46,077 bases of DNA, from the NCBI GenBank assembly GCA_903843045.1, contig CAIMOJ010000014.1:1-46077 (forward strand), written 5' to 3'. The position numbers were made by a program, and so were the translations under genes. Below are positions 10,589-41,212 of the stretch, piece after piece; positions within the stretch are counted from its first letter, which is position 1; each line of letters begins with the position of its first letter. The notes below the pieces were generated by a model. The model did no database searches. It was not told where the DNA came from and saw only the letters and a program-made list of their open reading frames with translations. Origin of the DNA: Candidatus Uhrbacteria bacterium. Lineage in GTDB: Bacteria; Patescibacteriota; Patescibacteriia; UBA9934; GWF2-40-263.

Positions 10589-10663
10589 TGGCTCCGGGGG
10601 CGGGGATCGAACCCGCGACAAATGGATTAACAGTCCACTGCTCTGCCGCTGAGCTACCCCGGA
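10589..10663 (-). tRNA. tRNA-Asn (anticodon GTT), CCA encoded
   Basis: Reading the minus strand, acceptor arm TCCGGGG pairs with CCCCGGA. The D arm is GCTC-AGCGGCA-GAGC. The anticodon arm TGGACTGTTAATCCA presents GTT, and the T arm carries GGTTCGATCC. Discriminator G is followed by genome-encoded CCA (10589-10591). Length is 75 nt with CCA. It has its own promoter upstream and terminator downstream, so it is a single-gene unit. Confidence 0.97.
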
Positions 10664-36869: not shown

Positions 36870-38120
36870 ATGTCCACACCCAAGACCCTCTTCGACAACC
36901 CGATGAACGATTCCAGCCATTCCCCGCTCGCCGACCGGATGCGTCCGAAAACGCTGGGCGACTATGAGGGACAGCGGCAGATCGTGGGCGAAGGAACGAT
37001 CCTGCGCGAGGCGCTGAAGCGCGACGAGATTCCGTCGATGGTGTTTTGGGGTCCGCCTGGGAGCGGGAAAACGACGCTGGCGAAGATCATCGCGGAGACG
37101 ACCAAGTCGCATTTCATCGCGTTCAGCGCCATCTCCGGAACGGTCAAGGAGATCCGGGAGACGATCGCCGGGGCGGATGCGCGGAGGAAGATGTACGGCG
37201 AGAAGACGCTGCTGTTCGTCGACGAGATCCACCGGTTCAACAAGGCGCAGCAGGACGCATTCCTGCCGGCGGTCGAAAGCGGAATCATCACGCTCATCGG
37301 CGCCACGACCGAGAACCCGTCGTTCGAGGTGAACTCGGCTCTCCTGTCGCGATGTCGCGTGTTCGTCCTTGCCATGCTCGAGCCCGAGGCCGTCATCGCG
37401 ATCCTTCGCCGGGCGCTCGTCGACGAGACGGACGGCCTCGGAAAACTCAAGCTCACGGTCGACGACGACACGCTCGAGTATCTCGCGATGATGTCGAACG
37501 GAGACGCCCGCGTCGCCCTGAACGCGCTCGAGCTCGCCTCGCAGACGGGGTCCGTCGACCGCAAGCGGATCTCCGACGCGCTCCAGAAGACACATCTGCT
37601 TTACGACCGCGCCGGCGAGGAGCACTACAACATTATCTCCGCGCTCCACAAATCCATGCGCGGCAACGACGCGAACGCCGCGCTGTACTGGCTCGGGCGC
37701 ATGCTCGAGGCCGGCGAGGACCCGATCTACGTCGCACGACGGCTCGTTCGGTTTTCATCCGAGGACATTGGCCTCGCGGATCCGAACGCGCTCGTCCAGG
37801 CCGTCACGGCGTTCCAGGCCAGCCACCAGCTCGGGATGCCGGAATGCAACGTCATCCTGGCGCAATGCGTGGCCTATCTTGCCCGCGCCCCGAAGTCGAA
37901 CGCGCTCTACGTCGCCTATGGAAAGGTCCAGCACGACATCCAGGAACTGCCCGCGGAACCAGTCCCGATTCATCTTCGAAACGCCCCAACGAAGCTCATG
38001 AAGGACCTTGGGTACGGGAAAGACTACAAATATACGCCGAGCTTCGAAAATGCGGAGGACGCGAAGCAGGACTTTCTGCCCGATCGTCTCAAGGGGAGGA
38101 AATATCTTGATCCCACGTAA
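36870..38120 (+). CDS. rarA: Replication-associated recombination protein RarA (MgsA), AAA+ ATPase
   Basis: 416 aa, normal length. SPLADRMRPKTLGDYEGQ is the family start, Walker A GPPGSGKT (61-68), Walker B DEIHRF (118-123), sensor 1 LIGATTENPSFEVN, arginine finger LLSRCRVFVL, then the MgsA tetramerisation and C-terminal domains with HYNIISALHKSMRGNDANAA, LYWLGRMLEAGEDPIYVARR and a conserved YGKVQHDIQELPAEPVPIHL. RarA acts at stalled replication forks with SSB and RecQ-type pathways. The ATG at 36870 is chosen because a TACAAT box precedes it by 8 nt; upstream in-frame codons belong to the previous gene. Its last 32 nt overlap the 3' end of the SanA-like gene. Confidence 0.96.
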   Translation: MSTPKTLFDNPMNDSSHSPLADRMRPKTLGDYEGQRQIVGEGTILREALKRDEIPSMVFWGPPGSGKTTLAKIIAETTKSHFIAFSAISGTVKEIRETIAGADARRKMYGEKTLLFVDEIHRFNKAQQDAFLPAVESGIITLIGATTENPSFEVNSALLSRCRVFVLAMLEPEAVIAILRRALVDETDGLGKLKLTVDDDTLEYLAMMSNGDARVALNALELASQTGSVDRKRISDALQKTHLLYDRAGEEHYNIISALHKSMRGNDANAALYWLGRMLEAGEDPIYVARRLVRFSSEDIGLADPNALVQAVTAFQASHQLGMPECNVILAQCVAYLARAPKSNALYVAYGKVQHDIQELPAEPVPIHLRNAPTKLMKDLGYGKDYKYTPSFENAEDAKQDFLPDRLKGRKYLDPT

Positions 38121-38757
38121 CGCGACCGTCGCCTCGGATATCAACCGGGTCGCCGAGATATTTTGGCGCCGATCCGAAGAACATGTCCGCGACCGCTTTG
38201 ACGCGAGACAGCGTTTCGCGCGCCGAGAACCAGAATTGCTTGAGATACGGCTGAAGGTCGGAAGAAACGCCCGATGCCCGTATCCCAAGGTGCGACGCAA
38301 GAAACAGAGCCCGGGAGAGGTGGTAGCGCTGGGTGACGACAATCGCGTCCGTCACGCCAAAGACGCGGTTCGCGCGATACATCGTGTCATACGTGTCGAA
38401 CCCGGCGTGATCAAGAAAGATATCCTCGGGAGCAACCTGCCTCCCGAGCAAAAACCGTCGCATCGCATTTACTTCGTCGTACCCCTTCTTGCCGTTGTCA
38501 CCGGATACGAGAATCTTCTCGACCTTCCCCGCCGCGTACAGGTCCGCCGCGACGATCAGCCGGTCCGCGAGTATGTCGGACGGAGTTCCGTTTCGAAGGA
38601 CGCTCGCGCCCGGAACGATGACGATGTATGCGGACGGCACGTCCCCAATCGAATGGATCGCCGAGCGTGCCCCCATGACGACGACCAGCTGCACGACGAC
38701 AAACGTGAGCAAAAGCAAACAAATGATAGCCATCGATCCCTTGAAAAGTAGTCGCAT
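38089..38757 (-). CDS. SanA/YdcF-like DUF218 membrane-anchored protein
   Basis: 222 aa from the ATG at 38757 (a TTG 15 nt upstream is in frame). One N-terminal membrane helix (about residues 8-28) precedes a DUF218 domain: AYIVIVPGASVLRNGTPSDI, LADRLIVAADLYAAGKVEKI then LVSGDN, YDEVNAMRRFLLG, EDIFLDHAGFDTYDTMYRA, VVTQRYHLSRALFLASHLG. SanA in E. coli affects envelope permeability and vancomycin sensitivity; DUF218 may bind nucleotides or act on lipid-linked sugars. A structured RNA of about 219 nt ends 17 nt before the ATG on the same strand, so it may be its leader. Convergent with rarA, 32-nt overlap. Confidence 0.9.
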   Translation of the reverse strand: MRLLFKGSMAIICLLLLTFVVVQLVVVMGARSAIHSIGDVPSAYIVIVPGASVLRNGTPSDILADRLIVAADLYAAGKVEKILVSGDNGKKGYDEVNAMRRFLLGRQVAPEDIFLDHAGFDTYDTMYRANRVFGVTDAIVVTQRYHLSRALFLASHLGIRASGVSSDLQPYLKQFWFSARETLSRVKAVADMFFGSAPKYLGDPVDIRGDGRVTWDQDISSP

Positions 38758-38774
38758 AGGAAAACCACGCAATC

Positions 38775-38993
38775 AAAACTCCACGCACGCCCTGGATTTG
38801 GTCCAATAGCAGTCGGGTATGTTTGTTCGAGCCGAAGCCGAACGAAACGCTTTCATCCGCGCGAGAGATTCAGTTTTCACCGAGGTCACGCGCAGGAATC
38901 AGCTTAACCGCAGGGCTCTCGCACCGCCGTCAAGGCGACGGTGTCTCTAAGCCCTTGAACCAAATTTAGCCCAAATCAGTTCGTTCGTGGAGT
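38775..38993 (-). ncRNA. Unassigned structured RNA, 219 nt (standalone ncRNA or leader of the SanA-like gene)
   Basis: No protein frame is convincing between 38758 and 39122. On the minus strand a perfect TATAAT (39000-39005) is followed 7 nt later by ACTCCACG (38993-38986), which pairs exactly with CGTGGAGT (38785-38778), followed by TTT; A/G mismatch and ACG/CGT extend the helix. Inside it GATTTGG (38977-38971) pairs with CCAAATC (38801-38795), but ATTTGGTTC (38965-38957) can pair with the same region (38804-38796). Three hairpins follow: GGGCT/AGCCC with inner CACCG/CGGTG (38954-38913), GCGCG/CGCGC (38893-38859), GTTCG/CGAAC with a TTCG loop (38848-38821). It does not show tmRNA, SRP, RNase P or riboswitch signatures that I know. 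Confidence 0.72.
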
Positions 38994-38999
38994 AACCAC

Positions 39000-39005
39000 A
39001 TTATA
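39000..39005 (-). promoter_or_regulatory. -10 box of the structured RNA
   Basis: Perfect minus-strand TATAAT; the predicted start at 38993 is 7 nt downstream. The -35 position (39023-39028) reads TTTTAC and is poor. The flanking DNA (39006-39060) is AT-rich. Confidence 0.7.
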
Positions 39006-39061
39006 AAACATGGGGGTTAAAAGTAAAAGCAAAATGTCAACGGGTTAGAAGTCTGTCGAAA

Positions 39062-39122: not shown

Positions 39123-39608
39123 CTAGCGCGCTACGGCAAAGCTGATGGATGGCTGCGCGAACTCAAGGACGTGTCGAACCTCCGGACGCAGCTCGAACGA
39201 GGCAAACTGCGCGGACGTGGAGCGCGAGACGAACGGTTCCGCCTCGGGCGAAAGCCCCGGGCGCTCGATCACGGACTGCCCCTCTTGCGCCCCCATGTCG
39301 ACCAGCTGAATCGGAGCGATCCGAACGGACGACCCAGCCGATGGTCCCGGCGCGGAACGTCGCATATCCGGGAGCTCAAACGACATGACGCTCACCACGA
39401 GCACGGCGACGATGGCGCCGCCCGCGACGAGCGTGGTCGAGTACGTGAAAAATCGCATCCAGACGAGCCGGAACCGGTTGCGCTCGAAGCGCGTCGAGTT
39501 CAGGAGGGCGCGACGTAGAGCATATTTGTGCGTCACGTCCTCCGTAACCTCAACGGACCCCATCCGTCGCAGAAGTTCCTCAAGTTGTAACAGCGTCTGT
39601 TCGGGCAT
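39123..39608 (-). CDS. Putative single-TM anti-sigma factor
   Basis: 161 aa from the ATG at 39608, overlapping the sigma gene by 29 nt. The cytoplasmic N-terminus (about residues 1-55) is helical, with LLQLEELLRRMGSVEVTEDV, and has no zinc-binding HxxxCxxC signature. One helix (about residues 60-83, TTLVAGGAIVAVLVVSVMSF) is followed by an outside part of about 75 residues rich in Ser, Glu and Pro with no clear fold. Gene order (sigma first, single-TM protein second, overlapping) is the standard anti-sigma arrangement, but sequence similarity is not evident. The role is inferred from context. Confidence 0.62.
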   Translation of the reverse strand: MPEQTLLQLEELLRRMGSVEVTEDVTHKYALRRALLNSTRFERNRFRLVWMRFFTYSTTLVAGGAIVAVLVVSVMSFELPDMRRSAPGPSAGSSVRIAPIQLVDMGAQEGQSVIERPGLSPEAEPFVSRSTSAQFASFELRPEVRHVLEFAQPSISFAVAR

Positions 39609-40200
39609 AGGTCTTGATCGACTCACGTTCTTCCGCTGGCAGGCGGGGAGACATGAGCACGTGGAGCTTTTTCAACGCGCGATGGATATGTGACTTAATC
39701 GTCCCTTCCTTCATGCTCGTTGCCGTTGATATTTCAGGAATGCTGAGGTCCGAGAAGTACCGCATCGTCAGGATGTTCTGCTGCTTTTGGTTGAGCTGGC
39801 TCAGGAGCGGCCTAAGGCGATCCAGTTGCCCGCGCAGTCCCAGGTCATCCTCGTCGGCGAGCGCCGAGACATCCGGCCGGTAATCCTCGTTGGCTACCAG
39901 CTCGGGCGCTTCGTCGATGGTCACCGACAGCCAGCGTTTGCGGCTGCGGTAATGGTTGCCGACTTGGGCGACCGCAATCGCGAACAGCCACGACTTGAAC
40001 GGTCTTCCCCGCGATTCATACCGCGGGATGTTCTTCAACGCCTGGAAAAATGTCTCGCTGCACAGGTCCTTTGCGACCTCCGCGTTGCGAGTCCTTGAAA
40101 CAAGGAACCCGAACACCGGCTGGTAATATCTATCATACAACCGCCCGAATGCCTCGGGATCCGTCTTTGCCTGTTCAATGAGCATCACCTCCTCTTCCAT
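39580..40200 (-). CDS. ECF-type RNA polymerase sigma factor
   Basis: 206 aa from the ATG at 40200; a second ATG at 40185 directly follows AGGAGG and is possible. Region 2 reads FGRLYDRYYQPVFGFLVSRT, RNAEVAKDLCSETFFQAL (-10 recognition and core binding) and the typical WLFAIAVAQVGNHYRSRKRW. Region 4 is LNQKQQNILTMRYFSDLSIP, then EISTATSMKEGTIKSHIHRA (HTH for -35). The linker is acidic. ECF factors turn on envelope or stress regulons when an anti-sigma is released. The regulon is unknown; no ECF-type GGAAC -35 was found upstream of neighbouring genes. Confidence 0.92.
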   Translation of the reverse strand: MEEEVMLIEQAKTDPEAFGRLYDRYYQPVFGFLVSRTRNAEVAKDLCSETFFQALKNIPRYESRGRPFKSWLFAIAVAQVGNHYRSRKRWLSVTIDEAPELVANEDYRPDVSALADEDDLGLRGQLDRLRPLLSQLNQKQQNILTMRYFSDLSIPEISTATSMKEGTIKSHIHRALKKLHVLMSPRLPAEERESIKTYARTDAVTT

Positions 40201-40294
40201 ATGATTACACGTATGCAAGTGTAAGTTTTTCGACCTTTCACAAAGTATATAACCAGTATACGCCGATCGTTGCAGTGGGTCACGAAATCAATCG

Positions 40295-40351: not shown

Positions 40352-40379
40352 TAAAAAAAGAAACGGCACGTTGCCGTTT
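40352..40379 (-). terminator. Intrinsic terminator of the M41 gene
   Basis: Minus strand: AAACGGCA, loop ACG, TGCCGTTT, then CTTTTTTT. It overlaps the TAA stop of the M41 gene. Confidence 0.88.
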
Positions 40380-41133
40380 AGGAAGGTTGCTTGACCCGCG
40401 CCAGAAACTGGTCGAGGTCCGCTCCTTCGATCGTCTCCACCTCGAGCAGTTTCGCCGCGATCTCGTCGAGCAGATCGCGATTCGTCTCCAGGATCTCCTT
40501 CGCGCGGACAGCCTGGGCCTGGATTTCCTCGCGCTTCTGGCCCTCGAGCATGGCGAGCATGTCGTCGGAGACGGTCTCACCTTCGTCCAGCTGCAAGTAC
40601 GCAAGCTTCCCGCTCCCGAATCCAGCGACCTCGAGCATGTGCGTCGCATAGACGGAAGCTTGGCGAAGATCGCTGCGCGATCCGTTGTCGGCCCCGGCGA
40701 GAACCAGGTCCTCCGCAACCCTTCCGCCAAGATAGAAGGCGATCTGATCGCCATACCCCTTCCTCGTCAGGTTCGGCTCCGTTCCCTCGTCGCGCCTGGC
40801 GACGTGCCCCCTGCAGCCAGGGGACGGAACGATGGTCGCCGACTGGATCGAAGCCACCAGCCCGACCGCTCCCCCGACGACCAGGTGCCCGGCCTCATGG
40901 TAGGCCGTGCGGCGCCGGTCCGCGTCGGAAAGCGGCTTGGCTTCAGGCACCAGTTCGGCCTTCGAGCTGGGAACGAGGCGATCGTACACCCAGCCAACGA
41001 ACTCTGTGACCCCCCAAATAACGGCAACGACCACCGGGTACGTAAGGAGAACCGTGATGTCCCCTTTTGCGATGGCCGCCGTTCCCGTCGATACGAGACC
41101 GAGCTGTGCCGCGCTGTTCAGATTTTTGTTCAT
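40378..41133 (-). CDS. Stand-alone membrane-anchored M41 (FtsH-type) peptidase without AAA domain
   Basis: 251 aa from the ATG at 41133, with GAAAGG 1 nt upstream. The N-terminal part has one hydrophobic stretch (about residues 27-50). From about residue 70 the text matches the FtsH peptidase domain: TAYHEAGHLVV (zinc His79 and His83, catalytic Glu80), FYLGGRVAEDLVLAG, and the third ligand Asp155 in GSRSDLRQASVYATHMLEV, then the C-terminal helix bundle. The AAA ATPase half and FtsH extracellular domain are missing, so unfolding would need a partner or the substrate must be loose. The gene follows the ABC exporter by a promoter embedded in its terminator. Confidence 0.9.
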   Translation of the reverse strand: MNKNLNSAAQLGLVSTGTAAIAKGDITVLLTYPVVVAVIWGVTEFVGWVYDRLVPSSKAELVPEAKPLSDADRRRTAYHEAGHLVVGGAVGLVASIQSATIVPSPGCRGHVARRDEGTEPNLTRKGYGDQIAFYLGGRVAEDLVLAGADNGSRSDLRQASVYATHMLEVAGFGSGKLAYLQLDEGETVSDDMLAMLEGQKREEIQAQAVRAKEILETNRDLLDEIAAKLLEVETIEGADLDQFLARVKQPS

Positions 41134-41176
41134 CCTTTCTCCACTGGTCTCCAACCGGATTGGCTGGAAGAGGCGA

Positions 41177-41212
41177 AGGGTATCAAAAAACCGGCCGTTT
41201 GTCAACGGCCGG
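41177..41212 (-). promoter_or_regulatory. Terminator of the ABC exporter gene carrying the promoter of the M41 gene
   Basis: Minus strand: CCGGCCGTT-GACA-AACGGCCGG then TTTTTT is a 9-bp intrinsic terminator (41185-41212). TTGACA (41200-41205) spans the hairpin loop, and 17 bp later TACCCT (41177-41182) is a -10. The M41 ATG is at 41133. Confidence 0.83.

Follow-up and report, generated by a model that had tools for sequence, protein, structure and literature searches.

The window analysed here is the whole of contig C14 (46,077 nucleotides) in the 1.28-Mb, 96% complete genome of a Candidatus Uhrbacteria bacterium; we take the class of this host and of the relatives compared below to be ABY1, Patescibacteria. 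A gap of 365 nt separates an upstream ORF from a DUF218 gene whose ATG is at position 38757. The ORFs across this region are short or antisense, in agreement with the first-pass annotation, which had seen no credible protein in the gap and had placed a structured RNA there. The genes and transcription signals that frame the RNA are:

39580-40218, minus strand, upstream sigma-70 family gene (PF08281/PF04542)
39123-39626, minus strand, one-TM protein gene adjoining the sigma-70 family gene; Pfam gives it no family
39000-39027, minus strand, sigma-70-type promoter: -35-like TTTACT from 39027, a 16-nt spacer, TATAAT at 39005-39000
38778-38993, minus strand, RNA gene, with predicted 5' end at 38993 and 3' end at about 38778-38775; fold z about -5; homologs have conserved ends
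38089-38757, minus strand, DUF218 (SanA/YdcF-like) gene (PF02698, E 1.6e-22); downstream neighbour of the RNA in 3/5 genomes of the genus only

The one-TM protein (39123-39626, minus strand) resembles an anti-sigma partner, and throughout the family it stays next to the sigma gene. The window also encodes a 275-aa protein (40378-41205, minus strand) with a Peptidase_M41 domain (FtsH-type protease), in which Pfam finds no AAA ATPase domain.

The TATAAT box at 39005-39000 predicts a transcription start at 38993, the first nucleotide of a closing helix, P1, of 8 bp in the window copy, which is then followed by UUUU. The first-pass annotation had pointed to this agreement between box, start and end helix, and we reproduce it, with a promoter score of 10/12 matches where shuffles expect 0.3 such sites; the other sequence elements that it had picked out were likewise all found where it had placed them. 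We infer that transcription begins at this sigma-70 promoter and stops just past P1, yielding an RNA of ~215-219 nt. The 3' end of the window copy is a prediction, since only the UUUU run, and no separate terminator hairpin, was found 3' of P1; with only this run after P1, read-through into DUF218 is possible in this copy. The minimum free energy of the 219-nt RNA is -94.5 kcal/mol versus -70.3 (SD 4.7) for shuffles, corresponding to a fold z of -4.8 to -5.2, with zero shuffles as stable. The elements of the fold in the window copy, from the 5' end, are:

38986-38993, minus strand, 5' strand of P1, which pairs with 38785-38778; the P1 strands coevolve
38971-38980, minus strand, strand 1 (ACUGAUUUGG), the outer 5' strand of P2
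38957-38965, minus strand, strand 2 (AUUUGGUUC), a duplicate of the core with the same 3' partner
38913-38954, minus strand, P3: P3a (38954-38950/38917-38913), an internal loop, P3b (38943-38936/38929-38922) and a CUUG-type terminal loop
38812-38911, minus strand, P4: about 38911-38907 with 38818-38812, enclosing a variable domain
38871-38882, minus strand, P5 hairpin (CGGU-GAAA-ACUG) within the variable domain, identified by direct inspection
38792-38804, minus strand, 3' strand (GGACCAAAUCCAG), the common partner of strands 1 and 2
38778-38785, minus strand, 3' strand of P1, whose last U opens the UUUU run at 38778-38775

In such a layout the P1/P2 end helix would close a junction from which the P3 hairpin and the variable domain of P4 extend. 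In some other members the P5 loop is GCAA or UUCG instead of GAAA, and a tmRNA-like motif seen in some members, GGUUUCGACUGG, turned out to be the UUCG-looped form of this hairpin. The total length of the RNA ranges from 131 nt (f1g2, the shortest) to 351 nt across members, and these lengths, together with the compensatory changes described below, are unlike coding sequence. The G039 copy (L006:1501-1832) is 332 nt long, its P4 domain carrying an additional insertion that forms a long hairpin of its own.

A DNA search found one copy in the genome of the window and homologs in 4/4 other genomes of the genus, three of them 69-70% identical over almost the full length; in the remaining one, G004, the match covered 94/231 bases, although the 3' half is nevertheless present. 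Partial DNA matches extend to three further genera of the same family. A covariance model of the 5' core, R1, matched 33/43 genomes of the family, 2/2 of f2 and 3/5 of f3; two of the 33 matches have E of about 3e-4 to 6e-4, for which the rebuilt model R2 gives 2e-8 to 3e-7. In the sister family f4, the fourth of the order, 0/23 genomes had a convincing R1 match; there the RNA is either absent or too diverged for detection. The models were rebuilt from 48 (R2) and 69 (R3) sequences, and reach respectively 54/381 and 66/381 genomes of the class, the latter at E<=0.02. The 3' partner strand was left out of every model, and finding it is an independent check because no model contained that strand. 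Of 99 candidates examined by eye we dropped 23 that lacked the 3' partner, were themselves partial or had been mis-paired by the script; 76 members, representing 46 genus-level groups in 12 families, were kept after this check. Outside the class, no convincing match came from samples of 380 and 217 genomes drawn from the whole phylum: weak matches from other classes (G427, G527, G574, G575, G582, G613, G617, G667, G520) were rejected on reading by eye, with no convincing P1 and P2 partners alongside the remaining fold, and those of a whole-collection pattern scan in Microcystis, Bacteroidales and others were taken as chance. As far as these models reach, the family is restricted to one Patescibacteria class. 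The RNA is usually single-copy; G024 carries two copies (L035, L116), one beside the sigma pair and the other divergent from DUF218.

Evidence for the fold also comes from the way in which its strands change together. The sequence of P1 turns over completely between genera while its pairing is kept (as examples, CUCCACG/CGUGGAG, AACUUCACAG/CUGUGAAGUU and CCGAACGCGA/UCGCGUUCGG). Full-length MAFFT alignments misalign P1 and shorten some 3' ends; they were excluded from pair counts, and because of the misalignment we relied for whole helices on duplex energies, comparing cognate strands with strands exchanged among genus-level groups. By this measure the P1 duplex has -16.1 kcal/mol for cognate and -8.4 kcal/mol for permuted strands (z about -16, 0/2000), a result that is partly circular, as is that for strand 1 below, in that the retention of candidates by their 3' partner favours both pairings, while P3, P4 and strand 2 are free of this selection. 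Strand coevolution is also recognized in P3 (z about -15) and P4 (z about -5), with swapped-region controls between -0.4 and 0.8; all these z values ignore shared ancestry among the copies. In the structure-fitted alignment of 48 sequences P3 has changes on both sides in 14/14 pairs, 93.1% of its cells pair, and its covariation score is 0.760 versus 0.252 shuffled and <=0.157 with slid partners; the smaller MAFFT alignment gives 0.579 versus 0.253. The comparison of homologs, present in 12 families with the helices kept, shows a conserved structured RNA in which P1, P2, P3 and P4 covary, as judged by the permutation tests and the P3 alignment score; both the homologs and the covarying pairs had been named beforehand as checks on the structure.

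P2 has two candidate 5' strands. GATTTGG (38977-38971) and ATTTGGTTC (38965-38957) each complement the 3' strand at 38804-38792, and the first-pass annotation had already remarked that the two sequences share one partner. Its remark is borne out across the family: strand 1 coevolves with the 3' strand with z about -8.7 (partly circular, as noted), and strand 2, with z about -8 and 0/2000, does so as strongly, while a reversed-strand-2 control has z about 0. Matched changes in all three strands can be seen in f25 (UUCGG/UUCGG/CCGAA), f2 (UUGA/UUGA/UCAA) and f21g51 (UCCG/UCCG/CGGA), and at least 3 positions of the 3' strand are shared in 43/46 groups, the shared stretch being short in some. Coevolution among three strands is thus shown by comparison of the sequences. 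The shared core is extended outward to P1 by strand 1 and inward by strand 2, and for this reason the outer and inner helices can persist while the core swaps partner. In a nearest-neighbour model, which leaves tertiary contacts and proteins outside it, the window RNA has an energy of -93.3 kcal/mol with strand 2 blocked and -92.8 kcal/mol with strand 1 blocked, a gap of 0.5; over the 46 groups the median gap is 2.35 kcal/mol favouring strand 1, and the strand-2 register makes at least 4 pairs in 36/46 groups. These calculations suggest that the end helix has two usable registers.

The same data can be read more conservatively. A stand-alone RNA might have a single functional P2 register, with strand 2 pairing only by its inner part, as a short helix within P2, or else serving in a triplex or as a protein contact, and the second register arising as a by-product. 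The strand-1 register is indeed the one favoured in most groups, and some groups (f9, f46a and f25g274 are examples) pair strand 2 weakly or not at all; for this reason the two-register idea is not universal. Against a single register, the three-strand match at the positions counted above includes the shared core itself and is not confined to the inner extension. We regard this simpler reading as possible, though unlikely.

The neighbours of the RNA bear on whether it is a gene of its own or the leader of another. In its own taxonomic family the usual neighbours are the sigma-70-family gene and the one-TM gene, and the RNA lies behind or facing them. Outside that family, many copies have a tRNA-Pro(GGG) gene starting 194-729 nt beyond the beginning of the core, 18 of them on the strand of the RNA and 2 on the opposite one; the RNA gene precedes it in f9, f19, f21, f25, f26, f36, f43, f46, f57 and f86 (L064, L113, L151, L159, L162 and L166 are examples), and a tRNA-Phe is near the RNA in part of f25. 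This tRNA neighbourhood backs the weak matches in f9, f26 and f46. Immediately ahead of P1, 18/46 groups (39%) have a -10 box matching in 5/6 positions or more, and beyond the RNA 13/46 groups (28%) have a terminator by a strict definition; at control positions each frequency is 2%. Since promoter- and terminator-like sites are enriched at the two ends and the neighbours differ between families, we infer that the RNA is its own transcription unit, independent of its neighbours.

Of the two roles that the first-pass annotation had entertained, this organization argues for a separate ncRNA and leaves the riboswitch-like leader of the DUF218 gene without support. A cis-acting leader would be suggested by the DUF218 start lying directly past P1 in G000, G002 and G003, and by the window copy being without a separate terminator hairpin. 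Among the surveyed loci, however, DUF218 follows the RNA only in those three genomes; it is not beside the RNA in G001, it is divergent in G004, G010, G006, G028 and the second G024 copy, and the context survey did not find it beside the RNA in other families, while many copies have a terminator of their own at the 3' end. We consider a DUF218 leader largely refuted and give it almost no credence. With downstream contexts that vary between families, the RNA does not hold the fixed 5' UTR position of one gene or pathway that marks riboswitches and leaders. Like riboswitches and attenuators with alternative pairing it has two segments for one partner strand, from which it differs in having no conserved downstream gene and often a terminator of its own; it may work in a switch-like manner without being a riboswitch.

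The first-pass annotation could not assign the RNA to a known family, and the covariance models of Rfam 15 (4227 families) lead to the same result. At the gathering score the window gives only a tRNA-Asn; this tRNA-Asn(GTT), at 10589-10663 on the minus strand, is the sole Rfam-named RNA in the window. At E<=10 the RNA region has three sub-threshold matches, all on the opposite strand, and in 20 other copies only tRNAs pass the gathering score, so that 21 copies including that of the window are without a family match. Individual models were also run on 8 genomes of the class (G000, G010, G039, G093, G111, G172, G104, G361). RNase P RNA (RF00010) and tmRNA (RF00023) are each above cut-off in 7/8 of them and lie elsewhere (in G000 at C23:7478-7911 and C27:29205-29602, respectively).

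The closest contender among known housekeeping RNAs is 6S RNA, which is about 200 nt, housekeeping-like and usually single-copy, and which rearranges its structure. The RNA described here could be a known housekeeping RNA that has diverged strongly, with 6S as the most plausible choice: it is itself usually single-copy, it has a sigma-70 promoter, and the 6S model (RF00013), which detects 6S in E. coli, B. subtilis and other bacteria, has a match at E<=1 in 0/8 class genomes. But none of the 21 scanned copies has any 6S score, the fold is branched, where 6S is a rod with a bubble at its centre, and the loci found by the RNase P and tmRNA models are different ones; we consider such an origin very improbable.

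Among non-coding RNAs with an elaborate conserved structure, OLE, ROOL and GOLLD are larger than the new RNA. Like it, they are ornate conserved RNAs of unclear function (PMC12286853), from which the new RNA differs in being without any Rfam match. More similar in size and build is raiA / ModT RNA (RF03072), a compact stand-alone RNA of about 210 nt whose biochemical role is unknown (PMC11706538, PMC11751092) and which likewise has several helices and an end-closing P1. The two differ in phylum and in their helices, and the two-pseudoknot core of raiA has no equivalent that we could see in the new RNA, where pseudoknots were not searched systematically. The possibility of a raiA RNA, raised by the first-pass annotation, fails on the model (cut-off 101.3 bits): there is no match at E<=10 in the window region and none in 20 further copies, and the best scores in the 8 class genomes, 12.9 and 12.4 bits, are at other loci. 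We found no published description of this RNA in a literature whose coverage was limited, most subscription journals being outside it.

These results can be interpreted as follows. With moderate confidence, we favour the view that the RNA represents a new family of independently transcribed, probably trans-acting structured ncRNAs with a two-register end helix. A trans-acting housekeeping or regulatory RNA fits better than a cis element because of the breadth of distribution, the usual single copy, the RNA's own promoter and the variable neighbours. According to this proposal, the duplication of the P2 core strand would allow the helix to sit in two registers, with either strand 1 or strand 2 paired, and the register would change by migration of a bulge of ~12 nt. 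As the RNA is being transcribed, the inner extension of strand 2 is the first to emerge, so that this strand could pair before strand 1, which would come to compete with it while the P1 strand is being completed. Either register could be held by a partner, whether protein or RNA; the new RNA would act as a housekeeping ribonucleoprotein or as a regulator, toggling between registers or locked in one of them by its partner. A more speculative extension, which we think doubtful, is that a class-wide Patescibacteria housekeeping RNA shifts its duplicated strand between near-isoenergetic registers and perhaps takes on a task, polymerase regulation for example, for which these genomes yielded no known RNA.

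The novelty lies in the RNA family, structured non-coding RNAs in general being a known kind. The members listed make the family searchable in metatranscriptomes, and the coevolution of three strands offers a concrete and testable mechanism. The genomes of Patescibacteria are very small, yet many lineages keep this RNA, and for this reason it likely matters to them.
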